Origin: Gaeumannomyces sp. JS-464
Taxonomy: Eukaryota > Ascomycota > Sordariomycetes > Magnaporthales > Magnaporthaceae
Assembly: GCA_002197995.1 (NCBI GenBank)
Contig: NGZR01000012.1
Coordinates: forward strand, 1-64,000
Direction of reading: 5' to 3'
Length of the DNA: 64,000 bases
Numbering within the stretch: position 1 is the first letter of the stretch; the number at the start of each line of letters is the position of its first letter. Below, one piece after another: positions 1 through 64,000 of this stretch. The translations under genes and the position numbers were made by a program. The notes under the pieces were generated by a model. That model was not told the origin of the DNA and did no database searches. It saw only the letters and a list, made by a program, of their open reading frames with translations.

Positions 1-400
1 TACACTACACCACACTACTTACTGCTCTACCACGGTACACACCTCCACGCACGCTTCGACGACACCTACTTCACTCCCACTTTTTACACTACTTTACACT
101 ACTACACTACACACACGACTTTCTTCACTCTTTACACCTGTTTTACACTTCTTTCTTGACTACACACTGACACACGCTTTTTTACACACTCTACACGTAC
201 GTCTACACACTACTTTGTTGTACTTTACACTTACTACTTTACTCACACTACTTTCTACTTACACCTTGTACACACTACTCTTTACGGACTGTGTACACCT
301 GTACACACTCTACCACGCTGTTACTCGTACACACTTGCACACTGTCACTTACCCTACTACTTACACTTTTTTTTACTGACACACTTACACACGCACTTCT
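1..400 (-). CDS. LAGLIDADG homing endonuclease, 3' part (runs off window)
   Basis: In the collapsed reading one minus-strand frame is open over about 100 codons and runs off the left edge. It has the layout of the C-terminal half of a LAGLIDADG protein: a helical block with YKLIEILINIIKYNKYL, then a Lys-rich stretch, then KNGMNSSR, matching the family's conserved K..MN block. Tryptophan is written TGA in the upstream part. No good start codon was found; an in-frame TAA lies just upstream near 425, so the 5' part may be broken or shifted. It lies downstream of cox3 and the tRNA-Ser/Asp/Gly group. The host intron is not identified. A decayed free-standing copy is possible. Confidence 0.45.
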
Positions 401-429
401 TGTCGTCACACCACTGTACACCTCACACT

Positions 430-1500
430 TTTACACACTACACACTGACGACCACCTACGACTACTACTTACCCACACGTTTACTTTTTACACACACTAC
501 ACTTACTACTTACACACACTTACCCCTCTGCACTCCGACACACACTCCTGACACACACTCACCCTTACACACACACACTTACTCACTCGGACTACCTACG
601 ACGTTGACACTACACTGTTTTTACTTTGCTGCTACACACCCTTACACCCCTGACTACACACCACACGACCTTTTGTACACTACTTACGCGGACCTACTAC
701 ACTTACGACTACCTACTACTACGGTGTACGACACCACACACTACACTACACACACTACACACGACACACCACACACTTTACACTACTGTACGCACACTCA
801 CGACTGACTACACACACACTACACTTGTACGCTCCTCGTTCTTCGCTCACACACACACTTGTGTTTACACTTACACCACCGTACCCTCACTACGACGTAC
901 ACGACTTTACACCTCACCGCGGCGTGACTTACACCACACACACACACTACACGACTCTTGCGCCACACTACTACCACCACCACCACCACACCGCACCCAC
1001 ACTACTAACACACCACACACTACACACACTACACACTACTACACTACACACACTACTACACACTACACACACTTACACACACTACACTTACTACACTTAC
1101 ACTACACGACACGACTACTACCCTGCACACACACACACCCTACTTACACACACTACTACACTACCTGACCACCTACTACGGACTTTTTACCTACACCACT
1201 TACCACACACTACTGGCACCACTACACACACACGACACACACTACACACGACACTTACCACCTTACACACACTGTCTACTACTTACTACACCACACTTTG
1301 TACTACACACACTTCGACACTACCTACACACTACACACTTACTTCACTACTTTTTTTTTTACACTACACTCTCCTTACACTACACGTTTACGTTTTTACA
1401 CTACTCTACTACACTACTACTACTACTACACTACCTACTACTACGTACTACACTTACCCACACTACTACACTCACCACTTACACTACCTACACACTACTT
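430..1500. other. AT-rich stretch, no gene recognised
   Basis: Collapsed sequence is very AT-rich, with homopolymer runs including ten T near 1350. No tRNA, rRNA block or protein family was recognised. Confidence 0.5.
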
Positions 1501-1507
1501 ACACTTC

Positions 1508-1614
1508 GGACACACACGACGACGGACACTCGACACCCTCCACGGTGTACACACACACCACTACTTTACGCACACACTACTCTTACCCTTACCCACACTG
1601 GACACACCTTTTCC
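1508..1614 (-). tRNA. trnS: tRNA-Ser (GCU)
   Basis: Collapsed minus strand folds as a tRNA. The acceptor arm is GGAAAAG against CTTTTCC. The T-arm has five pairs around a TTCGATT loop. The anticodon loop is TTGCTAA, giving anticodon GCU on a four-pair stem, and the variable region is longer than usual, which suits a class II serine tRNA. The T-stem pairs only if one C is removed after each A, so this gene helped fix the decoding rule. It is the first of three tRNAs in a row downstream of cox3. Confidence 0.8.
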
Positions 1615-1624
1615 TTCCTTCGTG

Positions 1625-1738
1625 CTGTACCTTCTACACTACCTACTGACACACTACACGACACGTACGGCACGGCTTACCTTCTACCTGCTGGCTTCTA
1701 CTGACACACTACACGCCACGCCACGCACGACTGCTACC
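1625..1738. repeat. Palindromic hairpin cluster
   Basis: Between tRNA-Ser and tRNA-Asp the collapsed sequence holds inverted repeats built from CTTCTACTGCTGGCTTCTA and its partner, with a TATGAAATAAG core. The same core recurs in hairpins near 12.69-12.73 kb and 13.2-13.5 kb. They look like members of a dispersed palindromic repeat family. Confidence 0.6.
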
Positions 1739-1832
1739 GACACCTACGACCCGGACTTCGACACCCGGCACTCTACTTCCCGTGACCACACGGGACACTC
1801 CTTTACCCACACTTACACGTTACCTACGACTC
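1739..1832 (-). tRNA. trnD: tRNA-Asp (GUC)
   Basis: Collapsed minus strand has anticodon stem TTCCC/GGGAA around loop TTGTCAC, giving GUC. The T-arm is GCCGG-TTCGAAT-CCGGT and the D-loop contains AATTGGTAA. The acceptor stem has six of seven pairs with one T-T mismatch. A related copy with an insertion in the anticodon loop lies near 22.2 kb. Confidence 0.8.
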
Positions 1833-2071
1833 TTTACTACCACACACTACACGACGCTACGCTTTACACCTCACCTTACCCCTTACACGGACTACACTGC
1901 TTACACTGTTGCTTTTACACTCCTACACACGTTTACGCTGCACGCTGGTGCACGTTGTACGCACGCACGCTGGCTTCTTACCTTCGTACTGACACACACG
2001 CACACACCCACCACTCACACCTACTACCACACTCCTACGGTACACACACTTACACCTACTTGTACTACTAC

Positions 2072-2161
2072 CGACTTACGTCGGACCTCGACACCCGACC
2101 ACTACCGCTGTTTGGACACGACCACGTACACTCCTACCCACTTACACACTGACTACACTCG
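2072..2161 (-). tRNA. trnG: tRNA-Gly (UCC), copy 1
   Basis: Collapsed minus strand has anticodon loop TTCCAAA (UCC), T-arm GTCGG-TTCGAGT-CCGAC, and an acceptor starting CGATTA that pairs with TAATCG. A copy identical over the tRNA body is found at 13,335-13,424, beside tRNA-Asn. Confidence 0.82.
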
Positions 2162-2361
2162 TTTTGTTACTTTCTGCTGCTGACCTGCTGGCTTACGCAC
2201 GCCACGCGTACCGACACGACCTTCGTACCGCTACCACTACACTACACACACACCTTTTGTACTTCACTACCACTACACACTACTGCTTGCTACACACTAC
2301 GCACACGCTACCTACCACACACACACTACTTTTACTTTACACTTACACACACTTACACACA

Positions 2362-3894: not shown

Positions 3895-6800
3895 CACACT
3901 GACTACTACACCACACCTCACTTACTTGACTTACGACCTACTGTCACTCACTACTTACGTGCTTGTTACACACACACACACACACACACACTACACTTTA
4001 CACACACACTTACACTACTGACACACACGCTTTACCGTCACACTTTTTACCTTTACTGCTACACGCACGCGACGCCTCGTCACACACACGCTCTACCTCT
4101 TACTTACACACGTACACCACCACACTGTTACACTTGACCTACGTCGTTGGACCCTTTACTACTACTGTCACTACACACACACACTACTACCTTGGCACGC
4201 ACACACTTACTCACTTACCTTACCACGACACACACACTGACCTTTCTTGCTACTTACACCTTTTACACACACACACACACTTTTACTTACTACTACACTT
4301 TACCTACTACTTACACTTTACACACACCACACACGTACTACCCCTTTACTACACGACACTTACCCTGACACCTTACACACCACTTTTTTACACTACGTTT
4401 TTCTACGACGACTACTTACACTACGCTTTCGCACCACTTCACCTCACTACCTACCTACTACACACTGTTCCTACTTGTTACTTACTTACTCTACTACACC
4501 ACACCACACTACCTACGCACGACTTCACCTTACCTACACTTTACTCCGTACTTTCTACACTACTACCGTACCCCCTGTGACTCTTACTCTCACTACACGG
4601 GCTACTCACGACTACACACTACACACGTGCGGACTACACTACGACTTGTCTACTTTCACACCACACTTGACACACTACCGTTCTTTACTTACCCCACACT
4701 ACACACTTACTCACTTTGTTGTTACACTCTACTACTTTACTTACACTGTGTACACTTTTACTTGCACTCACACACTACTGTACTTTACCCTTCGACGTGT
4801 ACGTGTGACTACACCCTTTGTACACTACCACTACTCTACCCACACACTTTACACCCACTACACTGACACACACACTCTTTACGCTTTTACACACACTTTT
4901 TACACTACACTACCTCCTTCTTTACTACACTACGACACTCCTCACTACACACTACACGGGGTACTTACACACACTACTTTACTACACGTTCACTGTACTT
5001 TTACTTACACTTTCTACACTACCTACTTGTACGGACTTACCTACTCGACCACTTACTGTTCTCTACGGTGTACGTTACACTACACACACACTTACCCTGT
5101 TTTACACTACACACTTCTTTTACTTTTGTTACTACCACACCTCTACACTTCTTTACACTACTGACTTTTCCACACCTTACACACCCTACGGTACCACTAC
5201 TTTACTTACGTTGACACACACGGTACGCTTCACGCACTCACTACACACTCCGGCTACACTCACACTACTTACGTTTACTTACACTTCTACTCACCTACAC
5301 TACGACACCCACGGTACTTCACTTTACTTTTTCACTACCCTGTCACTTTCTTTTTTACTACACCCTACTACACTACGCCACACTTACCCTTCACGCTGAC
5401 TACACACTGACTACTTTACTTTTCACGTTACGTACACGACCTGCCTTTTCACACACTACACTTTACACACACTGACTGGTACTTTTGACACCTACTTACA
5501 CGACTTCACCACTACACTTACACACTACTACGGTACTTACTACACCACTACTACACACACTGACTTTACTGTCACTTTACCACACACACTACACCTTACC
5601 TTTACTCTTTACGACCTTACGACACTACTGACCCACCACTTTTACACACGTACTTCTTACACTACTACCTCTACACACCCTCGACTTTCACTCCTTACTG
5701 TACACACTTACACTTTGACACACTGTACACACTTGACGCACTACTTTACTACACTTGGTACTCTTTACACACACTCTGTACACGTCTACACTGTGGACAC
5801 ACTTACCCTTCTCCACTCACGTACACACCCCACACACTCACCTCTACTACACACTCTTCTACTCTACACACGACACTACACGACACTTACGCTTCTTTGG
5901 TACGACACGTTGTTGGGACTACGACACACTACTTTACACTTTCTCACGCCTTTCCCGCACGCTACACGCTACCCCACGGACTTGGGACCTCGGCCCCCTT
6001 CTTTTACGGGCACGTGTACGCTGCTGCTGCTTTGGCGACCCTACTTACACACGTCTCCCTCCGCGACACGCGGCTACTCTTACGTACACTACTGTCTCCG
6101 ACCTTTGCGGGACCTGACCGTACTTACACCACACTTACACACACGGCACACTTGCTTTTACACGCGACACGCACCGACACACCACTACGTACACTACTTA
6201 CTACTACACACACACTTTACTACGGACCTACCACACACCACTCCACTGACCACCTACACTACTGACTACACCACTACGTACTACACGTTACACTACTACT
6301 TACTGTTACTTTCACGTACTTTCACCACACTACCTGTTCACGACCTACTACTCTTCTTACACCTACTACTACACCACTACCACGTCACACGTACACACGC
6401 ACCACACACACGACTACACTTCTTTTACTTACGTCGTGACACCCTTTTACACCACCTACACACTTTTTTCGCACACTACACTTTACGTACACACACTACT
6501 TGGCTGCACTACTTTTCTTGACTTACCTTACTACTTACGTACACACACTCACACGACTCTTCACTGCACACTTACACCTTTACTTTTCTGTTTACACTTA
6601 CACTACACACACTACGCTTACTACTTTACTACACACTTTACACACCACGGACCCTACCACCTACACTTTTTACTTTTTTTTACACTTACGCCTTGCTCCT
6701 ACACCCACGACGGGTGCTTCGCTCTGCGACACGCACGACGGACACCACCCTGTACACACGGGTGCGTTACCGACACGTACGGCGTACCCCTTTGGCTCAC

Positions 6801-8179
6801 GGGGCACTGACGACTACACACTACACACACTTACTACTGTTACCCACGTACTTCACTACCCACGACTTTTACACACGACTCTTACTCTTCTTTACACACC
6901 CTTCACACGACGTTACTACTGGGACTTTACTTCTTACACTACACGCTCACGCTACTCGTACCTACACACGTCTTTACCACACTCCACTACGACCTTTACC
7001 TCCACTGTACACACACACTTTTTGGACACACACACACGGGACTTACTTTACTCACTACCACCGTCACTTACACACTTTACTACTACCACACCACACGGTA
7101 CGCACCTACGACACGGTCTTGTTGACCACCTTCTCGACTCTTACCCACCCCCCTACGACTACGTCACACTTACACTTTACGCTACACTACACACGCCTCA
7201 CTCTCTCGCGTGTTGACGACTACTACGACGACACTGACTACTACACTACACCTGACTACCCCACCACTACACACTACACGCACTTACTTTTTCCCTTACA
7301 CCACTACACACACACCACACCCCTCTCCACTCTACCACACACCCCTGCCACTTCACACTTACGGACTCACGGTACTCCCTTGACACACACCACGACCTAC
7401 ACTGGACCGTGGTACCACGGTACACTACCACGTTGGACACACTTGACGTTTTTACACTGTTTCGGACTACACACCCGGTACTTCACTTGACACGCTTTAC
7501 ACGACCTTACTACACTCTCCCTACACTACCCCTCACTACGACTTTACGCTTTTACACACGCTACACACACGCTCTACCACCCACCGCTTACACACTACAC
7601 ACACGGTACACTCCGCTTTTTTTTGACGACACACTTACACACGGACACACTTTGTCACACACACTGACTACACTACCACTTACACTTACTACTCTCGGTA
7701 CACGACCTGACACCACCTACTACTACCTACTACACTACTTTCTGTCTTTACCGTTCACCTACACCACTACCCTACCACCCACACACACACGGACGTGTAC
7801 TTTCTCTACACTTACACTTGTGTACTCTTTGCTACTGCACACCTCACACTACCTACACACTGCTGGTACTTACCACCTTCACGCCACGACTACTCGACGG
7901 TACCTTTTTTACGCTACACTTTACACACACCTACACACACCTTCCTTCTGCGTCACGCACACACCCCTGTACACCCCACACTACACGGGGACACACGCTT
8001 CGACTTGTACTCTTACGTACCTACTACGTACGACACTCTACTTACTGTACTACACTGTTACACACCTTACACTACTACGTTACTTTACACACTACACCGG
8101 TACGGTACGACACCCTACCTGACACCCGCTACACTACTACTTTACACACACACACACACGGGGTTACGACACACCACAC
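3895..8179 (-). other. cox3 group I intron region
   Basis: Between the two placed cox3 exons the collapsed minus strand carries group I core motifs. CCAACGACTAG (R-like, near 4145) is followed by GATGACATAGTC (S-like, near 3940), just before the 3' exon. GCTGCGGGAAA (P-like) lies near 5950-5980. A second S-like motif, AAGATATAGTCTGAAC, near 6330-6360 suggests either two introns in tandem or a twintron. A LAGLIDADG ORF fills 4.3-5.9 kb. The stretch 6.4-8.1 kb is AT-rich with nothing else recognised. Confidence 0.65.
4318..5945 (-). CDS. LAGLIDADG homing endonuclease with C-terminal DNA-binding repeat, in cox3 intron
   Basis: Homing endonucleases of this family cut intronless alleles so the intron is copied in; some also help splicing. 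The collapsed minus strand reads GFTDGEGNF near 5850, the first LAGLIDADG catalytic motif, followed by about 450 codons with helical blocks such as SAEG and TLEGKY. It ends with a NUMOD1-like helix-turn-helix segment (SSMSECAKAINISRKTIKK) and a stop at 4318. The upstream extension reaches at least 5945 in frame. The frame needs about seven single-base corrections, mostly in T or A runs, plus one two-base gap near 4560. As written it would be inactive. The family call is firm; its functional state is not. Confidence 0.75.
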
Positions 8180-8581
8180 ACGCCACTGGACACCCCCGTT
8201 CCGACACGTACACACACACACACACGTCCCACACACGGCACCCGTCACCTTACTACGTACACACACGACACGACTACCACCTACTACCTCTACTTCCTTG
8301 ACACACGCCTGTACACACGACTTACTACGCTACACTACACTACTTGTACGCACACCTGACACCCACTACTACACGGCTCCTTCTCTTTTACCCTTGACAC
8401 TTACTGCTACTGGTGTGCACTACTGTCACCACGTACGCTCCGCTACGACTACACTACACACACTTACCACGTGTTCACACCACTTGGCACGCTCGACACT
8501 GGACTTACTGGGTTCTACTACCCTACTTGGTGGTCACTTGACGACCCCCACACCTCACACTGGTTGGTGTTACACACGCAC
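8180..8581 (-). CDS. cox3: cox3, main internal exon
   Basis: The collapsed minus strand gives about 105 codons of cytochrome c oxidase subunit 3, with the diagnostic blocks ALTPTIELGSQWPP, INPFELPMLNT, SSGATVTYAHHS, QGKREGALYG, FTGFQGIEY, FTISDGAFGT and TGFHG. All are expected, in this order, in the second half of the protein. Trp in SQWPP is TGA. Only one single-base gap, at ATTAAT near 8510, breaks the frame. The exon begins after an intron end (GTGAG before GCTTTAACA) and ends inside the codon after FHG, where the intron to the 3.66 kb exon starts. The 5' part of the gene, to the right, was not located. Confidence 0.92.
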
Positions 8582-8619
8582 CTCACCTTTACTTTGTACA
8601 CACCTTACCTTTACACTAC

Positions 8620-10360: not shown

Positions 10361-10369
10361 TGCTACACA

Positions 10370-12480
10370 CCTACACACACACACACACGCTCACGACACT
10401 ACTACGCCACTACACAACACACTACACACGCTTCACGACACACCTACTACACACCGACTACACCACCCTACACACTTTACACTCCCTTTTGTACCACGCC
10501 ACGACGTGTGGTCACCCTACACACACACACGTCACTACACTTTTCACACTACTACTTACCTACTACTTGACTTGGACCTTTACTACTAACTCACACTACG
10601 GTTTACTGACACACCGTACTTGACTCTTCACACCGTACACACGTCTCTGACGGGTCCTACCTACACGACTACTTTACTTCGTCTGTTGGTTCCCTGCTGA
10701 CTACGCCCTACTACACACGACTACGGGTTTCCACGCACTACACGTTACACACTTTACACCGACGGGCACCTTTTACTGTACTACACCCACCGTACGCACA
10801 CCACTACGCGACACTTACCTTACACTCTACGTTTTCCTACTTACACTTCTCTACACTTTTTACACTCTACCCTTCACTCACGTACACGGTGTTGTTTACG
10901 ACACACTTACTCACTACTTACTACACACCTGACACACCTCACTTTTACCACTACACCTACTCACTACTTTCTCACCCTACACTACACTGGACTACTTTAC
11001 TCACACACACTACACTTACACTTACACACACACTGACTACTCTTACTCTACTACGACACGACTACTGTACTACACACGACTACACTACCTTCTGACTCTG
11101 GTTTTACTTACCTACTTACTACACCACTTTTACACACTTACGTACTCTACACACTACTACACACACGACTACACTCTCCACTACACACACGGTTTCACTA
11201 CCTACCACACGACTGTACGGTTTACTCTACACCACACCGTTGACTCTACACTCTACACACCCTTACACACCTACACTTTTTCACCTTACCACGACTCTTT
11301 TACCGACGTACTCTGACTTTACCCTTTGCTTTCTACTACTACTTTACACTACCCACACACACTGTCCGTCACGCTTCGGTACACACACCCACGTTACACT
11401 CACACCTACTTACTTACTTGACACACTCCGTCGCTTGCGCACTCCACACTACACACCTTTCACGACTACTACGACTACACTACACACTACTTTACTCACT
11501 TACACACACACACTTCACACTTACACTTTACTTACACACGGTTACTACTTTTACGGTGTCTTACACTTTTCCACTGTACTCACACTTTACTACACACACA
11601 CGACACGTACTACCCTTCTTTACTCTCCACACTTACACTACACCGTACGACGTACTTTTACCCTGACTACACTTGACACACACCGTCCTACTACCCACCC
11701 TACACTTCTGACTTGACACTACACACTGCACACACACACGACCCTACACACTTACTCACACTACTGACGACACGTACACACACACCTACTTCTACGGACT
11801 TACACGTACTCTACTTTACACGGTTGTACTTTCCTACACTGACACGGACACTACTACTACTACTGACCCACTCACCCTTCTACACACACGACCCACCTTA
11901 CACACTACACTACTCCACACACTACACACTTACGGACTTACTTTTTACTACACACTACTTTTTACGTACGACACCACACGTACGACACTTACTACTACAC
12001 ACTCTACGTCTTACACTTACACTTTCTTCTTTGGGTACTACGCTTTACGCTGTTTTCACACTACTCACACACGACTTCGACACTACTACTACGGCTGTAC
12101 CCCTCTGCTACTTACTCACCGACACACTCACACACACCACTACGACTGACCACTTACGCACGTACTTACACACGCTACACACTACACACTGACTACACTA
12201 CTCCACTTACTTAACACACTTGTGCACTACGACTACACGGCCCCACCTACGACACGTTACACACGCTACACTACACACTACTACCTACGACACTACTACA
12301 CACGGTCACGGACGACACGGACGACACACCTACACTGACACACACGGACTGACTCTTGGACACACTTACCTTCTTACCTGACACACTACGTCACACACAC
12401 ACTTTTTTTACTTTACTACTTACTTACGTTACTGTACTTTTCCCTACACCACTTGGTTTTTACTACGCTGCTACTGCTCC
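10370..12480. other. AT-rich stretch, no gene recognised
   Basis: Sampled, not fully collapsed. No tRNA, rRNA block or known protein was noticed. The missing 5' exon or exons of cox3 may lie here or near 9.4-10.1 kb. Confidence 0.3.
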
Positions 12481-12760: not shown

Positions 12761-12845
12761 TACACGCTACTACACACACACACTTTTACACGTACACTGT
12801 ACACACTACACCACTACACACGCACACGCACACGCACACGCACGC

Positions 12846-12940
12846 ACACGACGTACCTACGGACACTCGACACCCCACGACACCTGGACACGGTTGACAC
12901 GCTTCTACACTTTTACCCACTTACACACCTACCACCTCTT
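12846..12940 (-). tRNA. trnW: tRNA-Trp (UCA)
   Basis: The collapsed minus strand folds with acceptor AAGAGTG/TACTCTT, D-loop TTTAATGGTAAAA, and a T-arm around TTCGATT. The anticodon loop is CTTCAAC, giving UCA, which reads both UGA and UGG. This agrees with TGA used as Trp in cox1 and cox3 (genetic code 4 or similar). Four of five anticodon-stem pairs form. Confidence 0.78.
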
Positions 12941-12960
12941 ACTACACACACACTACTACT

Positions 12961-13056
12961 ACGGACCCTGACGGGACTTCGACACCCCCTCCACTTACCG
13001 ACTTACACACACGTCACTACACGTACCTACCCACTTACTACCGACACACACTCCCT
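12961..13056 (-). tRNA. trnK: tRNA-Lys (UUU)
   Basis: The collapsed minus strand has anticodon loop CTTTTAA (UUU) on a full five-pair stem, T-arm GAGGG-TTCGAAT-CCCTC, and D-loop TATAATGGTAGTA. The acceptor begins AGGGATT and has one mismatch. It lies just upstream of tRNA-Trp on the same strand. Confidence 0.75.
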
Positions 13057-13330: not shown

Positions 13331-13334
13331 CTAC

Positions 13335-13424
13335 CGACTTACGTCGGACCTCGACACCCGACCACTACCGCTGTTTGGACACGACCACGTACACTCCTAC
13401 CCACTTACACACTGACTACACTCG
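13335..13424 (-). tRNA. trnG: tRNA-Gly (UCC), copy 2
   Basis: The raw text matches the 2,072-2,161 tRNA-Gly across the whole gene: same anticodon loop TTCCAAA and same T-arm and acceptor. It differs only in the flanks. The two identical copies imply a recent segmental duplication or recombination between repeats. Confidence 0.82.
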
Positions 13425-13604
13425 TTTGTGTGACACGCGCTTGCTTACCTACCGACACGTACCTACCTTCGTACGTACACGCACACGCTTGCTTACTACT
13501 GACACACTACACGACACGACCTTCGACCTTCGTACCGCTACCGTACTACACTACACTACACACCTTTTTACTACTACTTACTCTACTTCACTTGACTACT
13601 ACGT

Positions 13605-13696
13605 ACGTCCCTACACGACTGACACTCGACACCACTCTACTCGCACGCACTTACACCACGTGCCGACGCTCTACCCGTTGACGCTACTACGGGACC
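13605..13696 (-). tRNA. trnN: tRNA-Asn (GUU)
   Basis: The collapsed minus strand gives a nearly perfect cloverleaf: acceptor GTCCCTA/TAGGGAC, D-stem GCTC/GAGC, anticodon loop CTGTTAA (GUU), T-arm AGATG-TTCGATT-CATCT. It lies upstream of tRNA-Gly copy 2. Confidence 0.85.
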
Positions 13697-45235: not shown

Positions 45236-45249
45236 CTACGCTACACTTA

Positions 45250-48250: not shown

Positions 48251-48255
48251 TACCC

Positions 48256-48490: not shown

Positions 48491-48830
48491 TGACACCTTA
48501 CACTACACTGACACACCTTGCTACACACGGTTTCTTACACACTTCCACACTACTACACCCACACACTACCACGACTTTACTTTGACACTTACGCTGACTA
48601 CTACGTTGTACCTACACTTACTACCACACACACGCTGGTACCACACTTACACACACTACTACACACCTTCACGGCACACACCTTACACTTACTCTTACAC
48701 GTGACGCTTGCCTCACCACGACTGTTTTTTGTGCTACTACCGCACCTTACTCCTTCACCACTCACACTACACACTCACACACACTACACCTACTTGTTAC
48801 TCTTACACACTCTGACTCTACTTACTACAC

Positions 48831-48990
48831 GTTCCGACCTGTACCACTTCGCACACACCACTTTCACGCTTTACCGTACGGTGACACCCACGTCTGTACG
48901 CGACTGTTTACTACGCCACCCGACCGGTCTTTGACCTACGGACTGTCGTTACACCCGTTTTCACCCTTGTCCGGCTGTTACTACTTTACA
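48831..48990 (-). other. Group I-like intron core, second structural type (copy 2)
   Basis: The collapsed minus strand shows AACAGCCGGACAAGG, GACCGTCGGTGG, CATCGCTACAGACTGGTTC, and GAATGTACAGTCGG. It closely matches the 42,165 copy. Confidence 0.5.
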
Positions 48991-49245
48991 CTTGTACTTT
49001 GCTACTACACCACTTACTCTACCACACTTACACTACACCACCTACGGTGGGACTTGTCTACCCCACCGACCACCCACACTTTACACACTGTCCGACACGA
49101 CACTCCACACTTTCTTACTTACTACACACGTTACTACTTTCACCCCCTTACACCTTTACTACACCCTTACTACTTACTACTACACTGTACGACACTACTA
49201 CACGCCTTTTACGTACGCGGACGCTACCACACACGACGACACACT

Positions 49246-49380
49246 CCGACCTGTACCACTTACACGCACGCACTTTCACGCTACCCCACCTACGTGACAC
49301 GCACGTCTGTACGCGTTCACTTTACGGTACACACCGACCGGTCTTACTTACCACGGTTACACCTTTGACCCGTGCCACCT
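49246..49380 (-). other. Group I-like intron core, second structural type (copy 3)
   Basis: A more divergent copy of the 42,165 and 48,831 cores, only about 250 raw bases from the second. Shared blocks on the collapsed plus strand include GACGGTC and CTCCGACTGTACATT. Confidence 0.42.
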
Positions 49381-50905
49381 ACGTGTACGCTTTTACACTA
49401 CTTTTTGTTTTTTCCTACACACACACTTACCACCACACTACTACTTACCTACTTACACACACCTACGGGCTGTGGTACTACCTTTCGTACTTCACTTACA
49501 CTTACACACGTCTTACACTTTACTTTTACCACTCTGCTTTACACTACACTTTACACTACGCTTACGGCTACACACCCACACTCCCTTTTTTCCTGACCAC
49601 ACACTACCACTTACTTTACTTTACTTTTTTTACCTTACACGTCCTTTACTTTCGACACTCTTTTTTCTGTGCGCACACGCTACCACACACTGACTCACCC
49701 ACTTTTTTACACTTTACTACACTACGACCTTCCTTTCACTTTTTTTACACCTACACGACCCCTTTTGACCTACTTACACGGGTACACACTTTACTCACAC
49801 ACACTACTTTACACACGACGTTTTTCACCACACTTTTTACCCCCACTTTACCTCTACACGTTCTCACACACTTACACACACACTTACTTTTTACGACTTC
49901 ACTGACTGACGGACCACTACTTGCCCCACACCTTTACTCTCCGACACTACACACTTACTTTACTACTACTTCCACACTGTACGGTTTACTTACCTACTCT
50001 CACTTTTTACACGTTACACTACTACTACTCTACACACTCTACTACTCCTGTACCTACGGTTCACGACTACACGACTACCTACCCACGTGACACTGACTGC
50101 TTCACCCACTCTGACACACTACCCACGACTACGTCACTGCACTCACTCTACACACGACACGGTACACTACCTGTGCTTTCTACTACACCACGACTACTTT
50201 TCTCCACTGTTACTTTTTTACACTACACTTTTTCACTTACACTACGCACGACGACACACTACTTACACACACTTTACGCACTTTCTACGTTACGACACAC
50301 TACCCACTACTTACCCACTTACACACTACACGTTACCACACACTACACTTACTTACACACTTTTTACACTACTCTTGGACCTACTACACACTCTACTGAC
50401 GTACTTACTTTTTTACTACGACTTGTTTACACTACACCTTTACCCACACACTCCTACACGTTACTCTTTACACTGACACACTTTACACACCACACTCTAC
50501 TCTGTACGTTGACTTGACGTTACTGACCACACACACGACACACACACTCTCCTCTTTTACGCTACCTGTACACACACGACACCCTTCCCTTCACGTACAC
50601 ACTCCTACTACACGTCACCTCACCTCACCTACACACACACACACACTTTTTTTTTTACGACGACGACGACACTTACGGTACACTTTTTTACTCTGGACTA
50701 CTACACTTTACACACGTACTTCTTTACACACACTACCTTCACACACGTTACACACGGACCTTACTCCGCCTTACTACCTCCACACCACGTCACACCACTA
50801 CTACACACGTACACTACACCACTACACACTACACTACACGTACACACTACGTTACTTGTACACTACACACACTACTACTACACTGCACACGTTTGTTTTA
50901 CTTAC

Positions 50906-51035
50906 ACGACACACACGACTGTTGGACACTACACTACTACGGACTCACCCACCACCCACGCTGTTTCACACACGACACTGACACGTACTTACACACACTT
51001 TCTACTCACGTACACGTACCCACTTGTTACTACCC
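50906..51035 (-). CDS. cox1: cox1 exon, GITMVLTDRNFN to QHLF
   Basis: The collapsed minus strand reads GITMVLTDRNFNTSFFETAG, then GGDPILFQHLF. This is the cox1 segment leading to the haem-copper site, with the invariant DRNFNTSFF and AGGGDPIL.QHLF motifs. One G is missing in the Gly-Gly-Gly codons near 50,955. The exon ends at the codon before WFFGHPEV, a common fungal intron site. On the right it starts after an intron. Joined to the 54.55 kb exon it gives LPVLAG-GITMVLTD, as expected. Confidence 0.88.
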
Positions 51036-51049
51036 ACACACTACACACT

Positions 51050-54000
51050 TACACTTCTTGACTCTACCTACGACCTACGGTCTCACTGGTTACACTACTT
51101 TTACACCCTCACTACACACCACACACACTTGTTTACACGGTACGACTACCTCACACTACTGTCTCCACTACTTGTTGGGACACACTACTTTTACTTTGTA
51201 CTACGTTACTACACACACACTACTTTACACACTGTTCTCACACTTACACACTTCTGTTCTTTTACTTACTTCACTTGCGACTTTACACTTTCCACCTACT
51301 ACGCTTTACACTACGACTTCACGGTTCTGTCTGACTTTTTACGTTTCACACACACTACACGACCACACTACCTTTTACTTCACACTCTTTACTACACTTT
51401 ACACACTACTTTACCTACGACACACACTACACACGGACTACCTTTTCACACGACTACTTCTACCTACACTACTACTACACTTACCTACCTTACACACCTC
51501 GTACGTTCTACACCTCTACTACTTCACGGTTTTGGTTTACTTCACTTCTACACTTTCTTTTACCTGTACGACACGTTACGACACACGTCACGCACACTTA
51601 CACACTTACGACACACTTCACTACACTTACTTTTCACTTACTTACTGACGCGGTTTGTCTTTGACGACCACACTTACTTCGCCCACCCACTCCCTACCCC
51701 TACACACGACTTACACTTACTGTACACCACTACTACACTTACTCTCTACACCACACACTACTACACTTGTCTCTACACCTACACTACACACTACACTTAC
51801 CTACCTTCTGTACTGACACGTTACGCTTCGCACTACACACACACGGACACACTACACCTACCTTACCTACACTACTCTTTACGTGTACACACTACTACGA
51901 CACTTCTTTTTTACTACTACTTACTACTCTTTACTCACACTACTACTCTACGACACACGTGTACCGACACTACCTGCACACTCACACACTGTGACACGCC
52001 TCACGTACTACACTTTTACACACACACTTTTACTACACGACACTTTTCGTACCCTACACACACTACGGACTCACACACTTTACACACTACTACACACTAC
52101 CTTTTCTGCTACTTTGTTACACCCACACTTTTTACGTTTACGTACTCACTCTGACACTGTACACTTTTCCTACTTTTACACGACTTACCTCACTTTTTAC
52201 GTTTACGTTTCTTCTGTACTGACACACTTTACCTACACACCACTACGGACTTACTTTCACTTACACTTTTGGCTTTTTTACACACTTTACGCTACTTGTG
52301 ACTACGCTGACACTGTTTACACACACCTACACTACACACGACTCCTGCACGTTCTTACACACACTACTTACTACTTCACGGGTTTACGACACGACTCACA
52401 CTACACACACTTGTTCTCTACCTTACTTACACTACTCTTTACGCTTCACCTTTTACGTTACACACTCTTTTACCACTTACACCGTACTTCACACGACACT
52501 ACGTTACACACGACACACACACGCTGACACTGTCCACTACGTGACACGTACACCGCACTTACCACTACTTCTACCTACTTACGTGTTACCGTGTTACACA
52601 CTTACGCTTTACGACACTACACTACACTACTTTACACACCCGTCTACTACTACACACTTTTCTGACTGACGCCTACCACTACCACTTTTACTTACGACTT
52701 CTACACACTGTGTTACACTACGACTACTACTACCCTGACTTTACTCTTTACTTACTCACTCTACACTACTTGACTTGTTTTTCTACACCACACTGCGTTA
52801 CGTACTACTACTACACCACGACTGACACACCACACACTACGACTTTGACTTTACTTTACACACTTACTCACTTACACTACACTTACACACCGTGTACTTT
52901 ACACTACACACCGTGCACCGTGCGTACGGCTCCGCCTACCGGTACACACTGACACGACACACACTTTTCTACGTACACACACTTTGACACTTACTTTACG
53001 TACACACTTACTTCGTACACTACGTTACACTTTTTACTTACTTACACGGCCACACACACTTACGACACCTTCTACACTTTGTTTACGTACTCACCACACA
53101 CTACTCACACACACACACTTACTTTACACACTGACTTTCACACTTACACACTTCTGTTCTTCGACTACTACTTCTCTTTTTACACGGTTACTTACACCAC
53201 TACTTCTACACACTCTACACACTTACTCTACACCTTTACACTCCCGTTTTTTTACTTACGACTACGACTCTTTTTTACACTACTCTCTACACTACTTACA
53301 CCACACACACTCCTGACGACACTCTACACACTACTTTTACCACGACGACACACACTACGGGACACTACACACGCTACACACTACGTTACACGTACACACA
53401 CTTTCACTTACCTTTTACACTGTTTTGTGTTTTACACTACGACACACACTTACACACCCCTTTACGACTGTTTTTACCTTGTTTACACACACCTACTACA
53501 CTCACGGTACTTGCTACACGACACTTTGCACACTACTTCTTCACTCACACACTGTTTACGTACTTTTCACACTACTCTACACACACTACTTACTTTACAC
53601 ACCACACACACACTCGACCACACTTCACACACTTTACCACTTCTACTTCTTGGACTACTTTACGACACTCTACACACGTTGTTCTTACCTGACGACACAC
53701 TGACCCACTCTGCACTCTACGACACACCCCTGCTACACTCACACCACACTTACGACGTTTACTACTTGCTCACTACTCTTTACTTTTTCTTTTCTACTAC
53801 CTTACACACTCACTACTCTTGACACTTTACACTCACGTCACACTTACACTCTACTGTACACACACCACTACACACTTTTACGGGGTTCTCACTACTACAC
53901 CCACTTTACTACACTGTGGGTTACTTACGACACTTACTACCCTTCTACACTTTACTTACACCTGTTACACTACCACTACACGCACTTACACACCCTTTTT

Positions 54001-54540
54001 TTTTACGACACACTACGACTCCGTGGCTTACACTTTACGACTTGTACACTACTTACACACGCTACACGGACACACACTCTCTTGACACTCGACACTACCT
54101 ACTTTGTACTACGACACGGACTACACTACTACACACTCACCCTTTTGGGGACTCTTTCGGTTTTACGGTACCTACTTACTACGTACCCACTCTCCTTCGA
54201 CTTACACACCCGGTTACACACTACACGACGGCACACACTCTACACTACTCACACACTTCTTTACTTGTTACTTACACACACGACCACACACTCTCTTTTC
54301 ACCTACCCCGGACGGGTGTACACACACTACACTCTACCGACTCTACCTTTTACACACTTTTTACACACACCACTACCACACACTTTTGGCACTACTACGC
54401 CTCTGACACGACTACCTTACTACACTACTGTACACTTACGTTACACGCACTCCTGCTGACTACACACGACTACTACACTACACACTACACACTACTACTC
54501 TGTTTCCACGCACACTTACGCCACACACTTTACACACGCT
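51050..54540 (-). other. cox1 intron between LPVLAG and GITM
   Basis: Bounded by two firmly identified cox1 exons, so this is intron sequence of about 2.7 collapsed kb. I did not trace the ORF it probably carries. Confidence 0.6.
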
Positions 54541-54553
54541 GGCACGTACTTTT

Positions 54554-54721
54554 ACCCACGCTACACCACCACGGTACACTGACTACACTACACTACACTA
54601 CACTACCACGCTGTACACTACACCTACCACGCTCACTCCACACACCACACGGCTACGCTTACTGTACACTCTTACTACCCTGGACGTTCTCACTACTTTA
54701 CCACACTTGTTGTACACTGAC
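54554..54721 (-). CDS. cox1: cox1 exon, ITTIVNMRTPG to LPVLAG
   Basis: The collapsed minus strand reads, without any frame gap, ITTIVNMRTPGIRLHKLALF, GWAVVITAVLLLLSLPVLAG. This is the canonical cox1 segment between transmembrane helices V and VI (about residues 170-210), just before GITM. The Trp in GWAVV is TGA. The exon starts within the Phe codon of GAINF-ITT after a group I intron whose core is at 54.76-54.9 kb. It is the most upstream cox1 exon placed; the N-terminal third must lie to the right or beyond the window. Confidence 0.93.
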
Positions 54722-54759
54722 CACCGACACTTTACTTACACCACTACACTACTTACCTA

Positions 54760-54905
54760 CTTACTGACTTGGACCCACTACTCTTACACGCGCACTCGAC
54801 TTACACTCGACCACCGGTCTACTACACCGTACACGGCCTCTGACGGACTCCTACCTTACCACGTACACGGACTTACCTCCTGTTTTGGTTTCCTGCTGAC
54901 TTGTC
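54760..54905 (-). other. Group I intron core, cox1 (GAINF/ITT intron)
   Basis: The collapsed minus strand has AATCAGCAGGAAACC (P), GGATCCTCAGAGGCC (R) and TATGGTCC (S), followed by the ITTIVNMRT exon. Confidence 0.8.
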
Positions 54906-54974
54906 CTACACTACACACACTTACACTGCACACTACACACCACTACTACACACTACTACTACTTTTTTACCACT

Positions 54975-55040
54975 ACGCCTTGACCGGCGACCTTACCACA
55001 CGGACGTCGCCTACGGCACGCCGGACGGCCGGGACACTAC
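54975..55040 (-). mobile_element. GC-rich element A, copy 1
   Basis: Collapsed minus strand: CCCGGCCTCCGGCTGCCTAG, GCGACTCCTTGTAAGTCGCC, GTCAAGGCTATG. The same 50-odd bases occur on the plus strand at 63,872-63,928. GTCGCC and GGCGAC form an internal stem. A GC island in AT-rich intron DNA, present in both orientations, suggests a mobile GC cluster. Confidence 0.7.
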
Positions 55041-55059
55041 GGACTACTTCCACACTACT

Positions 55060-57810
55060 ACGTCACACACACTTTTACTACTCACACCCTCACCTACCTA
55101 CCTTTTTTACACTACTACACACTACACTTCGTTACGTACTACGTACACACCTTACCGACACGTACCACCTTCGTACTGCCTACCCTACCGGACCTACGCT
55201 ACCGACGGTACTGCTACCGCCACACACACTTTTCGTTGTTTTTACCACACACTACTACCCCACCGACTACACGGTACTACTTTGTGTCTACGTCGTTTAC
55301 ACCTACACGGTTGCTTGACGACGACCTGGTACGACCCTTGACCTTACACGACACGACACCTTTACCACCACTTTACCCTACACACCTTTCACACACACCA
55401 CACTTTCACTCTCCACCTTTTACACTACTTGACTTACACTACACTACCACGACTACCACCTACTGTTTGCTACACTACGGTTTACGTTCTACTTACACAC
55501 CTTACACTCTGTCTTGTTGTACACCACTTACTACGCTACTTTCTGGTACACACGTCACTCTCCGTACACCTTTGGCACGTACTCCACCCCGTTCCCTTAC
55601 ACACACTACACACTACTTTTCCTACGGTACACTACACGTTCCCTTACCTCACGGTGTTTACGTACACACCGTACGTACTGACTCACACTACTTACACGTT
55701 TACGACTACTACACACACTCCTTTTGTTGTACACACGTACACACACTACACTACACACGACACTACGACTTTACTCTCTACTTGTACCACTACTACACAC
55801 GGTTTACGCTCCACGACTCCACCTACGGACTTACTTCGACACACTTTTACTACGTACTTTACACACTTACACACACGACACGGGTCCACACTACACACTA
55901 CACTTGCTCTACACACACCACACTCTCTGGTTTTACTACTCACGGACTACACTGACGGTACACACCACTACTTACCTTCTACACTCTACACACACCTACG
56001 ACTACACACCCTTTTTCCTTACACTTACACGGACACTTACACCTTTCCTACTACCTTCTACTGTGTTCCACTTTACACACTACACCCTTTACACTCTACA
56101 CACACGCCACACCTGTGACACGACTGACACCCTACCACTACTTTTGACTTTGTACCCTACTACACGACCTACACACGACTACTACACACTACCCACCGTT
56201 GTTGTACACTTTACCCACTGACGGTACACGCCTACACCGCCTTACTCACACTTACACTCTTCTACGTTTCTACACTTTACTGTACACACTCACTTACACA
56301 CGACTTACACTCTACGGCACTACTTACACTTACACACGACACGTTACACTGTTTCTTCACTTACACACACACTACCCTGACGTACACGCTACACACACTA
56401 CTTACTTTACACTACCCTTTACACGGTACACCACGGTTTACCCACCTTACACTACGTTGACGCTTTACGCTACACCTGACTGACACCACTACACACCACC
56501 TACTCTCCTTTACCGTACGCGACACGCTACCTACACACACTACACACACCCACCACACTCTGACTTCTTTACTTTGACACTCTTTACGCCACGTTTTCTT
56601 TCACACGGTGCGTACGGCTGCACCTGACACCACCACCCTTACTTACCTTTGGGACTTCGCTACCTACTACGTTACGCTTTTACGTACTTACACGCTACCC
56701 TTTACGTGACGGCTTCTACTCCTTTACGTACGCCCTTTACGGACCTACGTACGTACACGACACACCACACCTACGACCTTTACACTGTGTACGCCCTTAC
56801 TGGGCTACCACGTGTTACACTACGCGGACGCACCTTCGTACGCGGACCACCGTTGTACACTTTTCACTACACTTACACACACTCTACACTACACACTTTA
56901 CACACTTGACTACGCCCCTACACTACACACCTACCTTACCACCCTGACACACGTGTACACACGCACACACACACTACGCCACACGTCTACCACCTACGGT
57001 CCACCTGTGACCTTTGTACCTCCTGACTACACTGGACGGGTACACCACACACTGCGCGTTGACTACACCTTCACTTTACTGCTTGCTGCGTACACCCACG
57101 CACACGCACTACACACTGACACTGTTACTACCTCACACTACACACTTTCTTGTACTTGTTCGGACCTACTACCCACTCACTCCTTACACACTCTACACTT
57201 TTTTACTTTCCACACTACACTGTTTTTCTTACTTTTTCTACACTACGTACTCTCTACACTGTTTGACTACACTTTACTCACTACACTTACCCTTTACTAC
57301 TTGTACTACTGACTCTACGCTCACTACTTTTACTACTTCTACACACGACTTTTACCACCCTTTCACTTACTACTCTTTACACACACTACACTACACACTA
57401 CACGGTGTTCTACTTGTTTTACGACGTTTGTTGTACTCTACACTACTACTACACTGACTTACTGTACTTTCTTTACACACCCTTACCTTTACCTACGGTA
57501 CTACTGTACACTACACTACACTCTTACTACCTTTCTACACACACCACACTACTTACTCTACACTTTTTGACGTTACACACCCACACACGCCACTGTACCT
57601 ACTTCTACTTTGACACTCTTTCGACCACCTACACACTACACACACACCTACCCTTCACGCTTCTACTACACACTCCTACCTACTTCACACGGTTTACGTA
57701 CACCTACTACTCCTTACACTTACTACTTTACTACTCACGTTACACACGGTACACGACTACTACTTGTTCCACACACCACGGACGACTACACACTACTTAC
57801 TCACTCTTTT
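55060..57810. other. Intron-rich stretch, not resolved
   Basis: Sampled only. Near 55,270-55,320 the collapsed minus strand has TTAAACGACTAGAC, an R-like group I motif. No exon was recognised. Confidence 0.35.
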
Positions 57811-58310
57811 TTACCCCTCCGGCCCACGGACCCCACCGGCTCCTGACGCCTGGGGCCGACGGGGCTTTTTACACGTACTTACACACGTTCCTTACTCTCT
57901 TTGTTCTTTACGACCACTACTCTTTACTCGTTTACACTACACACTACTACACGGCTTGTTTACACACTCTACGACTACACTCACACACACTACTTTACCT
58001 ACGTTACACTACACACGGACTACTTTACTACACACACACTACGGTACACTACTTACTACTCTTCTACTGTGTTTCTGTCTTCTCTACTACACACACACAC
58101 CTGTCCTTTACTTGTTACTCTTTACGTACACCACGACACCCTACCACCCTACACCTCTTTTTTTACTACTACACTACACGTACACTCTTACACACTTACT
58201 ACTCTACGACTTACACGCTACTTTTACACACACGACTACACTCCTCACTTTACCCACTTACGACGTACACTTGACTACGACACACACACTTACCCACTCA
58301 CCCACTCGGT
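57400..58310 (-). CDS. LAGLIDADG homing endonuclease
   Basis: The collapsed minus strand reads TWLVGVTDGDGNFSINY near 58,310-58,260, a LAGLIDADG motif with a TGA-coded Trp. It starts right after the R motif at 58,385, the same plan as the ORF at 36.5 kb. The rest of the frame was not traced, and a GC-rich element lies inside the presumed ORF at 57.84 kb. Confidence 0.55.
57815..57868 (+). mobile_element. GC-rich element B, copy 1
   Basis: Collapsed: CCTCCGGCCCAGGACCCACG, GCTCCTGAGCCTGGGGCC, GAGGGG. Its exact reverse complement over about 44 collapsed bases is at 60,983-61,032. Strongly self-complementary. Confidence 0.75.
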
Positions 58311-58369
58311 ACACCACCCTACCTACACTCACTGTTTCACACACTACACGCTTTACGACTCACACGGAC

Positions 58370-58425
58370 TGCTCTCCGTTTACGTCTCTGACTGGACTGA
58401 CACACTTTACTTTACCCCACACGCG
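58370..58425 (-). other. Group I intron core (R motif)
   Basis: The collapsed minus strand has CATCCATCAGAGACTAAACG, the P7/R signature, directly followed by the LAGLIDADG ORF at 58.3 kb. Confidence 0.72.
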
Positions 58426-60982
58426 TGTTGTCTCCACTGACACTCACTACCACTTTTTACCACTACCGTACTTTACTTACACTACTCTACACACACCACT
58501 GACGTACGTACTACACACACTTACTTACGACACGACGTTTCACCCTGTACACACTTTACCCCACGGCGTGTTGCGACCACACGGACACTACACACACTTT
58601 TTACCGACACTGCTTTACACACTTACGCACACGACGTACGTTTACCACACCTTACACTACACACACACTACACACTGGACACTACACGGGTTACACACAC
58701 GTTTACACTTTACGTGACTTTTACGGTACTACTTCTACTTCACCTACTACGCTTTACGGTTGTCTACGCTTACCGCTACTACCTACGCTTTTACCGTCTA
58801 CCCTACACTTTACGTACACTACGTTTTACTTTACTTTTACACTTACCTTTACTCGACTACTTACGTCTTTCGACTACACTACACTGTGCCACCACGACTC
58901 ACTACACCTTACACACTTCTACGACGACTTTCACTACCCACCGGACACCTTACCCTTTACACACTACTACTCACACTACACTACTTGTTACACTGTCCCT
59001 ACGACACTTACCCTGTACGACTACACTACCACTGACACTACTTTCTACGCTTTACTTACTACACTTACACCACTTACCTTTTACACTACTGTACACACGT
59101 ACCGTTACACTACACGACACACCACACTACACGACACTTTACTCTACACTTTTTGGACCACACTACGTACACACACTCTACTACCGACACCTTGACCTTG
59201 GACTACACACCACTACACCACCACACACACTGCCCTTCACGCTTCTACTACACACCCCGCTACACTCACACTACACACCACGACTACTACACCACGTACG
59301 CACACTACCTACTTACTGACTCACCTTTCTGCGTTTACACACTGGCTACACTACGCACGGACGACACACTACTACACTTACGCTGGACACGTTCACTCTA
59401 CACACACACGACACACACACACACACACGACTACACACTCACACACACGACACCTTCCACTACACTTACTACTTTCTCCTGCACTTACGCCACTTTACAC
59501 ACCGCACGACACACGTGACTCACTACACTACGTACTTGCTACCTGTTACTACTCTGTTTACTTGACTTACGCGGGGTTTACTACGACACGCTGACACGGG
59601 CACTTTTGGTGTTTACTGTTTACTCCACACGTCACACGTTCGTACTACGACTTTTACCTACTTGTCCACACACACACTTACGACTACACACTTCTTACTT
59701 GTTTCTTACTTACACACCGTACCTTTACCACTACTTACACACGTACACTGTTACACTTACTACACTACACACGCTACGACACTACTTCACTGTACTTACT
59801 CTACCACGGTACACTTCTACGGGACCACTTACACCACACTACTTACTTGACTACTACTTTACACACGGTACACGTTCCGTGGTACTGACACACTCTCTAC
59901 GACACTTTACACGTTACTGACTCTGTGGCACACACTTACTTACTCGACACACGACCTACACTACTCGACTACACACGTACACTTACACACACTACACACT
60001 ACACACACCTACTTACCTACACTTACGGTACGACCGTACACACACGCTACGTACTACGCGTACACGCTACGACCACACCTACACACGCTACTACGTGACA
60101 CTACGACACTACTACCCTACACACACTCACCTACACTTACACACCTTTTTACACCCCTTTACTTCCACTTTACTTTTTACTTACACGTTGTACACACCTA
60201 CCTCTTGCTACACTTTACACACGCACTTCGTACACACACACTGTTTACTTCCTTGTCGCACACCACCGCCTGGGTACACACTTTACCACGGTGACACACC
60301 TCTTCTACACTACACTTTTACTACCTACCTCACTGTTTTACTTACTACTTACACTACACACTACCGTACTGTACACACACACTGTACTGACTTCACTGGA
60401 CGACCACACACCGCTTGGGTACACACTACACACTTTACTCCACTCACGACGACCTACACACCGGACGACGCACTCCTTGACTCTACACACGCTTACTTTT
60501 GACACCACACTGACTTACGTACGGTGTTACCCGACTGGTGACTGGTACACTTTTTCTACTCACACTTACCTCTACACTGGTACACTGACGGACTTACTCT
60601 TTTACACACTACGCTTACACTCTACGACTACTACACTTTACACGACTTACCTTTACTTACTACTACACACACACACGACGTTACGGTGTACGGTTCTGTT
60701 ACCTACACACGACTACACCACACTACACACGGACCACGTTTTTACTACACGACGACCACGACACACACCACCACTACGACACGACTACTACACTACTTAC
60801 CCTACTTTTTGACTACACTACTCCTTTACTTACACCTACGTACACACTACTTTTGACTTACTTCTACGACTTTACACACACGCCTTACTACTTTACTTAC
60901 ACACCGACTACACGACTACTGTCTACACACGACACCACACGACGACTACACGGACACCTTTTACACTACCTTACACACACAC

Positions 60983-61032
60983 GCCCCTCGGCCCCACGGC
61001 TCACGGACGCCGTGGGTCCTGGGCCGGACGGG
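60983..61032 (-). mobile_element. GC-rich element B, copy 2 (inverted)
   Basis: Collapsed plus strand: CCCCTCGGCCCCAGGCTCAG, GAGCCGTGGGTCCTGGGCC, GGAGGG, the reverse complement of the element at 57,815-57,868 with no difference seen. Confidence 0.75.
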
Positions 61033-61049
61033 TACACACACACGACTGA

Positions 61050-63860
61050 CTACACACTACTTTACTCTCCTGTTTGGACACCACACTACTACTCTTTACC
61101 CTTTACACCTGACTACTACACACTACTACTTACACGGACTACTACGTTACCTACACACCCTTGACACTACGTACGGACTTTACTACGACACGCTGACACG
61201 GTACGTTTTTACTTTACGTGTCGACACGACTTCACACACTACGACACTACGTACCACTGGCTTTGGTTTACACCTCACACACACTTACGACTACACTACT
61301 TGTTTTACGACACACGTACTACACGACTTACTTACTTACCACTACTACCCTACGTACACACGTACACGGTTTACACACGACACACTACCACTACACTCAC
61401 TTACTACTACTTACGACTACCACACCACAACCTCTACACACACACTACGACACACCCTTACTTTACTTACTTTTACACACGACTACTACACTGACACACG
61501 GTGTACACACTCTTTACGACACTACTACACACTACTGACTACGACTCACTACTACCTACACACTACTACACACGGTACACTTACTGACTACACACTTACT
61601 CACACACACTTACGACGACTACCTACTTACGACACACACTACACGACACACACCACACTTACTTGGACACACTACACACACTTACGACTTTACACGGACT
61701 GACTGGTACTACGTCCGACACCACTACCACACGACACACTTTACTTGACGTACTACACCACTTCACTTTACTGCTTGCTGGTTACCGCACGCACACGCAC
61801 TACACACTGACACGTTACTCACACCGCGCACTTTGTTACCCCTCCACTTACTCACGGACGTACCACACGTCACCACGTGGACCCTACGTGTACGACCTTG
61901 GCTACTTTTTGCTTTACCACCTTACTCACGGTGTACACGTACGTTTACTTACGGGGCTACTCACACTTTACACACTTTACTTACGACTTTTACACTTACT
62001 GACACACACTTACCACACCGTGTCCGCTACCGACACGTGCTCCGCTACTTACACCACCTGTACGCCCACTACACGGGCTACCACCACTTACACACGTCTA
62101 CGTTGTTTTCTTACCTACCTACGTCCTACACACGGGCTACCTACACACGGACTACGACACGCCTCACCTACACACGGTACGCTTACACTACCTACACACA
62201 CGCTACACCTACTACGTACGCGACACTCCCACACACGTACACTACACGGTGTGTTCACGTGCACGCCTACCGCACCCTTGACACACGACACACACCTGGC
62301 TACACACGACTTCACACACTACACACGACACTCACGACTTGTGGTTTTACTTTTACGTACGCTTCGCTACCGTACACACGGACGACTACGTGTTTACTGT
62401 TCACTCACGTTACGCTACACACGCTCACACCTACTTACACGTGGTACACACCCTGTTACCCTTACACACGGTACTTACACACTACACTACTTTTACGCTT
62501 ACCTCACGGTACTTTTACGTTACACTGACACGACACACCACTTACACCTTCTTTACACTTACACTACTGCCTACGACTTACACTCTTTACACTGACTTTA
62601 CCACTACACACTTACGACACACCTACGACACGACTTACACTTGACTACACGGCGTTACGGCTTACCCTCACTGGTACACACTTACCACACCACACCGTGG
62701 TACTTTACTACTCTTTACGTCTTACTACGGTACCACACACTCACACACACACTACTGTACGGTTCACTCTTCACCACGTTGGCTTTTACGACTTACACAC
62801 GGGTTACTTTACACACTGGACACCACCACTACGACACGTACTACGGACACACGTTACACTTCCTTTACACTTACACGGACACACACGGTTTACTCTACGT
62901 TTTACGACTTACGACGACACTACTGTTTACCCTCACTTACTCCTGACTACTACACACACCCACGACGACTTGTTTTACGACGCACACTACTTACTTTACT
63001 TGGACCCCTTCTTTTACACTTTACACACTACCTACTACACACACTTTCGACACTACACTCCTACGTGGACTCTGGACGCTACACACCCTTTACTACTGTA
63101 CCACACTACGACGACTACACTACTCTTTACTTACTTTTACTTTTACCTTTACACCACACACACGGACTTTTACTACTCTACACACCTTACACTACTTGAC
63201 TCACTACCTACCGTTTACCTACACACCACCCTGACGTACACGGGACACCTTACTTACCCTACGGACACACACTACTTTACTTTTACACGGGACACCGGGT
63301 GGACTACCTGCCACACGTTACCGGACGACTGACCTTTACCCACGACACACTACGCTACTACACTGTTACCACACCACACGACCACGACGTTACACGTTTA
63401 CACTACGACACCTACACACCCTACTTACGCACACACCACTACGTGTACTCTGTACTTACTTACACTCACACTACTTACACACACGTGGACGACTGACACA
63501 CTTGTTTTTGACACACGTTTACGGTACACACTGTGTACACACGTTCTTCTTACACGTCACACGGTCTACCCACGTCTCTCACACGCACACCCTTACGTTA
63601 CACACCGACCTACGACCACCACACACTACTACCCTTACTCGTGGGTACTACTTTGTACACACACCACACCGACACACACTTTTGGCGTACGCACTACCCT
63701 CGTACGCTACGTCCGTACGGTACGGCACTACCGACACGTGTACCTTCGTACACGTTTACCTACTACCTACACCGACACTTACTTTACTACTTACACACAC
63801 ACTACGTACGTACGTGACGGTTGACTACTACACACTTTTGACCTACTACTGCTGGACACT
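61050..63860. other. AT-rich stretch, not resolved
   Basis: Sampled only. It should hold cox1 introns and possibly 5' exons; none was recognised. Confidence 0.3.
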
Positions 63861-63871
63861 ACTCCTACTTT

Positions 63872-63928
63872 CCCGGCCTCCGGCTGCCTACGGCGACCTC
63901 CTTGTACACGTCGCCGTCACACGGCTAC
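63872..63928 (+). mobile_element. GC-rich element A, copy 2
   Basis: The collapsed plus strand matches, as far as read, the element on the minus strand at 54,975-55,040, including the stem GGCGAC/GTCGCC. Confidence 0.72.
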
Positions 63929-64000
63929 TGTACACACACACACACTACTACTACTTACTACTGTCTTACTTGCACTTACACTTTTACTTTACGGACCACA

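Follow-up and report, generated by a model that had tools for sequence, protein, structure and literature searches.

The 64,000-nucleotide stretch of DNA analyzed here in full (the window; bases 1–64,000 of contig C4, 76,821 b) is very probably mitochondrial DNA, most likely of fungal origin, built from long reads in which a base-calling fault acting strand by strand called a C after each A. Contig C4 belongs to an assembly of 53,005,781 bases in 34 contigs, and the code that it carries, an extra C behind the A's (the AC code), is a sequencing or base-calling artefact and a fault of the assembly, not a biological feature. Biologically there is nothing new in this observation; its relevance lies in a data fault that affects 20 of the 34 contigs where sampled, with coded contigs that resemble sequence without relatives and real genes that are hidden from ordinary searches. 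Counting C after A, or G before T, flags such contigs at once and is applicable to public assemblies.

A cytosine after nearly every adenine

Among the 16,454 A's with a following base in the raw window, the dinucleotide counts were 16,447 for AC, 7 for AA, and 0 for both AG and AT, which confirms the first-pass annotation in its description of a C inserted after every A, no AT or AG, and almost no AA. By chance ~38% of the A's would be followed by C, because C makes up 38% of the raw window bases. The seven AA exceptions are located at positions 1007, 10416, 10588, 12213, 17794, 21015, and 61429, and the entire contig C4 contains 19,928 AC, 8 AA, 1 AT, and 0 AG. Replacing each AC by A (the collapse) reduced the window to 47,553 bases, of which 70.3% are A+T, and left unremarkable dinucleotide ratios (0.79–1.29).

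As the same annotation had anticipated, gene and similarity searches fail on the raw window, which returned 0 tRNAs with ARAGORN and 0 Rfam matches at the gathering score. Almost no stops are present on the raw plus strand under code 4, where false open frames reach up to 20,997 aa because hardly any TAA or TAG survives the AC code.

Mitochondrial content of the collapsed window

The collapse of AC to A had been put forward as the key to the window, and it does yield mitochondrial content (Table 1): cox fragments, tRNAs including Trp(tca), an SSU rRNA motif, and a high A+T. The tRNAs expected on collapse were recovered (six with ARAGORN, compared to none in the raw text), and 0 were found in each of the controls, which consisted of an AC-to-C replacement, ten random deletions of an equal number of C's, and ten triplet shuffles of the collapsed window. 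The collapsed window has 25 ORFs of ≥100 aa, and ten of them were submitted to a Pfam scan (one as the first 60 of its 117 residues); seven had matches (COX3 ×2, COX1 ×1, LAGLIDADG_1 ×3, and GIY-YIG ×1) and three had none. The predicted cox1 and cox3 are therefore present as fragments in the Pfam results, with frames that are still broken after the collapse as single-base deletions persist in the window. The 16S landmarks that had been reported were borne out by a single motif, GTGCCAGCAGTCGCGGTAA, which we take to be the SSU rRNA 515-region motif and which is exact on the minus strand of the collapsed window; the other five of the six rRNA motifs tried had no match within 3 errors. Intron-rich mitochondrial DNA of this kind makes a fungus the most likely origin.

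Table 1. Features of the window in raw coordinates; genes and motifs are those recognized after the collapse
Feature	Position	Strand	Evidence
AC code of contig C4 (A then extra C)	1..64000	+	16,447/16,454 A's followed by C
tRNA-Asp	1738..1832	-	ARAGORN
tRNA-Gly	2069..2162	-	ARAGORN
LAGLIDADG intron endonuclease fragment	5675..6226	-	PF00961, E 1.9e-06
cox3 fragment	8119..8588 (ORF limits)	-	PF00510, E 1.8e-15; residues 1-60 of 117 scanned
cox3 fragment	10367..10819	-	PF00510, E 2.1e-05
tRNA-Trp(tca)	12844..12940	-	ARAGORN
tRNA-Lys	12960..13055	-	ARAGORN
tRNA-Gly	13332..13425	-	ARAGORN
tRNA-Asn	13605..13696	-	ARAGORN
SSU rRNA 515-region motif (presumed)	17324..17345	-	Exact; end reckoned from 19 bases + 3 extra C's
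cox1 fragment	35051..35500	-	PF00115, E 1.7e-11; profile 346-391 of 436
Fold-back palindrome; both strands carry one mitochondrial stretch, AC-coded in each	42424..64000	.	Self reverse-complement match
LAGLIDADG fragment	43957..44510	-	PF00961, E 8.3e-14
GIY-YIG endonuclease fragment	52422..53033	-	PF01541, E 2e-08
LAGLIDADG fragment	57298..57868	-	PF00961, E 2.6e-09

Removal of the extra C was said to restore natural DNA, and this is nearly so, but single-base deletions remain and a fold-back palindrome is present, such that the collapsed text is no clean natural sequence. The palindrome continues beyond the window to the end of the contig (raw 42,424 to 76,821) with 96.5% identity over 25,814 columns and 164 mismatches, and is centered near 59,400 on a loop rich in A, ~31 nt long when counted by eye. 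Coded reads from the two strands, once joined by either a fold-back read or a short natural hairpin, would give two AC-coded arms, as is the case here. No mark of a sequencing platform was found, as the SMRTbell core adapter motif was absent within 4 errors at the palindrome center and at the other loci examined.

Spread and strandedness of the code in the assembly

Sampling covered C4 in full, 1.5–5 kb of every other contig, taken from the start (except for C1), and, for 20 small contigs, also the final 0.8 kb. Where sampled, 10 contigs were AC-type (C3, C4, C5, C15, C16, C19, C22, C25, C26, and C27), 10 were GT-type, the reverse complement with a G before every T (C6, C7, C8, C11, C13, C14, C17, C18, C20, and C28), 13 were normal (C1, C9, C10, C12, C21, C23, C24, and C29–C34, with the large contigs covered in small part), and one was masked (n = 34). 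All 19 of the coded contigs with a sampled end were coded there, and the end of C9 was coded as well. Together the 20 coded contigs would account for 612,897 bases, or 1.16% of the assembly, if the code runs through their whole length. Among the contigs with normal starts, C24 (L035), C32 (L042), and C12 (L023) open with a common A+T-rich sequence (86–96% alike), which looks subtelomeric as C12 begins with CCCTAA telomere repeats.

An alteration limited to the text of the window would be in keeping with the near-perfect rule within it, but the window itself holds seven exceptions and the code reaches beyond it into the remainder of C4 and a further 19 contigs, with both orientations represented. 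With the mosaic contig C9 described below, the occurrence of the code in other contigs refutes an alteration of this kind, to which we attach practically no probability. The presence of both AC-type and GT-type contigs where sampled instead indicates a fault that follows the strand.

The identity of the coded contigs could be assessed for just over half of them. The collapsed starts of C3, C7, C11, C14, C20, C22, C25, and C27 overlap C4 for >1 kb at 93.5–97%, on both strands, and, judged by these overlaps, nine coded contigs including C4 are assigned as mitochondrial; C16 and C19 are assigned as rDNA on their similarity to the normal gene copies. Thus 11 of the 20 coded contigs have a placement, nine mitochondrial and two rDNA, and both kinds of DNA are high-copy. 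Contigs C15 and C18 overlap each other (96.8% over 913 columns), while C5, C6, C8, C13, C17, C26, and C28 had no long overlap with the sampled sequence among the 60 longest matches.

To look for a complete mitochondrial contig free of the code, a collapsed 418-nt piece was compared with the assembly; it matched only C9 (75%), in a largely coded part of that contig. The COX3 model had a single match in the assembly, also in C9, and the COX1 model had two, in C31 (L045; internal TGA) and C33 (L046; internal TAG). The C31 match and the collapsed window share 97.8% identity across 725 columns (3 mismatches, 10 gap openings), and both COX1 matches, in large contigs, are probably nuclear copies of mitochondrial DNA.

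Normal versions of the same DNA do exist within the assembly, in the normal part of C9 relative to the window and in C10 relative to C19 and C16. Contig C10 is normal nuclear rDNA with SSU, 5.8S, and LSU. Collapsed C19 matches its plus strand at 98.3% over 5,008 columns (3 mismatches and 66 gap openings) and collapsed C16 matches its minus strand at 98.6% over 5,001 columns (4 mismatches and 51 gap openings). Compared to an AC-encoded version of C10, C19 has 2 substitutions, 85 deletions, and 10 insertions (97 differences in 6,041 columns) and C16 has 0 substitutions, 107 deletions, and 2 insertions (109 differences in 6,255 columns), where a lost A and its C count as two deletions. Residual deletions amount to about 1.3–1.7%, and frames are broken by small deletions. 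As a separate observation, a group I intron match occurs within a nuclear SSU rRNA gene (L021 1535–1822, minus strand; Rfam RF00028, 57.6 bits).

Because C19 and C16 each show the AC code when read in their own orientation, A is followed by the extra C on either strand, according to which was sequenced, and AC coding of both rDNA strands is impossible for any single duplex molecule. A real molecule with a C after every A has nothing to recommend it except the regularity itself. The collapsed coded rDNA matches normal nuclear rDNA almost base for base, and a duplex would give a G before each T on its other strand, whereas both strands are AC-coded here; the strand symmetry refutes such a molecule and leaves it with next to no probability.

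A few probes were also directed at the occurrence of the fault elsewhere. AC-coded universal 16S motifs (two patterns) had 0 matches in GTDB genome contigs, a 79-base stretch of E. coli 16S in AC code had no match in E. coli genomes, and an AC-coded telomere repeat occurred 0 times in this assembly. With these few probes of GTDB, the E. coli genomes, and the assembly itself, no further case was found.

Graded onset in contig C9 and the origin of the fault

Contig C9 is normal mitochondrial DNA at its start and AC-coded at its end, with a switch from ~10.6 to 13.2 kb (~2.6 kb). This graded change lies within locus L051 (C9 8001–16000). The A's of C9 were scored through an alignment with the opposite strand of the collapsed window, in which the same positions read as T's that the code leaves untouched. 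An extra C was present at 1 of the 146 aligned A's before 10,600, and at 0/65 in the bin at 10,401, 27/54 at 10,801, 51/62 at 11,601, and 45/46 at 13,201. From 10,601 onward, the share per 200-base bin was 0.09, 0.50, 0.53, 0.75, 0.81, 0.82, 0.81, and 0.86, followed by 0.92, 0.96, 0.92, 0.92, 0.97, 0.98, 0.96, and 0.93. Within the transition the share differed mildly with the next base (A 55/80, G 29/48, T 26/53, and C 11/23).

Coded and uncoded A's are intermixed without clustering in all three zones of the transition, where runs tests gave 62 observed versus 60.6 ± 5.4 shuffled, 86 versus 85.2 ± 5.0, and 29 versus 29.4 ± 1.7. As all-or-none reads would tend to agree at adjacent A's, the unclustered mixing favors a probability that acts on single bases and increases along the reads; this stochastic, base-by-base behavior was observed in one contig only, and near-tied consensus votes combined with alignment noise could also produce the unclustered pattern.

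Incomplete coding was also detected at contig ends. The left end of the AC-type contig C5 is slightly incomplete (0.96, 0.97), as is the right end of the GT-type contig C17 (1.00, 1.00, 0.94, 0.85), and these two ends and the left end of the AC-coded C9 agree with a 5′-to-3′ onset in the read. Onset inside single reads is suggested by one clear contig (C9) and these two weaker ends. Small dips to 0.97–0.98, one or two 200-base bins long and of unclear direction, occur at the ends of eight further contigs, both among the AC-type (C16 and C25 at both ends, C26 at the left, and C3 and C27 at the right) and the GT-type (C14 at both ends, and C13 and C18 at the right), and the GT-type contig C28 drops to 0.985 past its first 800 bases.

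Combined, the GT contigs, the AC coding of both rDNA strands, and the gradual change in C9 point to an error that arose in each sequenced strand before the reads were assembled. They also qualify the first-pass reading of a rule applied to the text and not biology, which was correct in excluding biology but not in proposing a simple rule on the text. Base calling of part of the reads, presumably long reads, would emit a C after A, with the fault following the reading direction of each sequenced strand and a probability of the extra C that seems to climb from 0 at first to almost 1 further along the read; a signal from one nucleotide that is split into two calls is a speculative cause. Since coded reads of the two strands would match neither each other nor the normal reads, the assembler would build separate contigs from them, AC-coded or, where a contig is written in the opposite orientation, GT-coded. 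DNA with enough copies would then assemble as ghost contigs that organelle and contaminant screens are likely to miss, and possibly only high-copy DNA was deep enough to do so. It is unusual for a signal fault to act as a near-total rule across tens of kb, although the consensus step would make the rule sharper.

The same near-total rule, and the near absence of substitutions, would also follow from a script or file fault that, ahead of assembly, turned A into AC in some of the read files, with each read affected wholly or not at all, and read-level substitution would likewise yield AC and GT contigs. Pure reads, however, would tend to agree at adjacent A's, and the mixing in C9 is unclustered over ~2.6 kb. 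Further, reads altered by substitution could not contain the AA, AG, and AT exceptions seen in the coded contigs, although a few of these might be due to consensus errors. A script or file fault is thus improbable, and strand-wise base calling is the preferred explanation. We are evenly divided as to whether this represents a failure mode of long reads, in which correct calling gives way gradually, over a few kb of the read, to a locked A-to-AC state. If true, the locked state would yield self-consistent, strand-separate ghost contigs that are invisible to search tools and organelle screens, and such contigs may hide in other public assemblies. In the literature searched, titles and abstract openings contained no description of an A-to-AC fault.

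Several known systems offer a partial likeness. Fold-back (inverted duplicate) artefacts arise in long-read data, and C4 similarly folds onto itself round a short loop, but no adapter was recognized in that loop. The usual content of an intron-rich fungal mitochondrial genome includes cox1, cox3, LAGLIDADG and GIY-YIG endonucleases, and tRNAs. The collapsed window shares these, in part as fragments, together with the SSU motif, and is unlike such a genome in being coded, in its residual deletions, and in being in part a fold-back palindrome. Mis-calls of telomere repeats in nanopore reads are reportedly strand-specific. Such mis-calls have been described as systematic base-calling errors (PMC9414165). 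They share with the AC code a systematic, repeatable mis-call, while the AC code differs in being an insertion that is saturating and affects virtually every A whatever its context.
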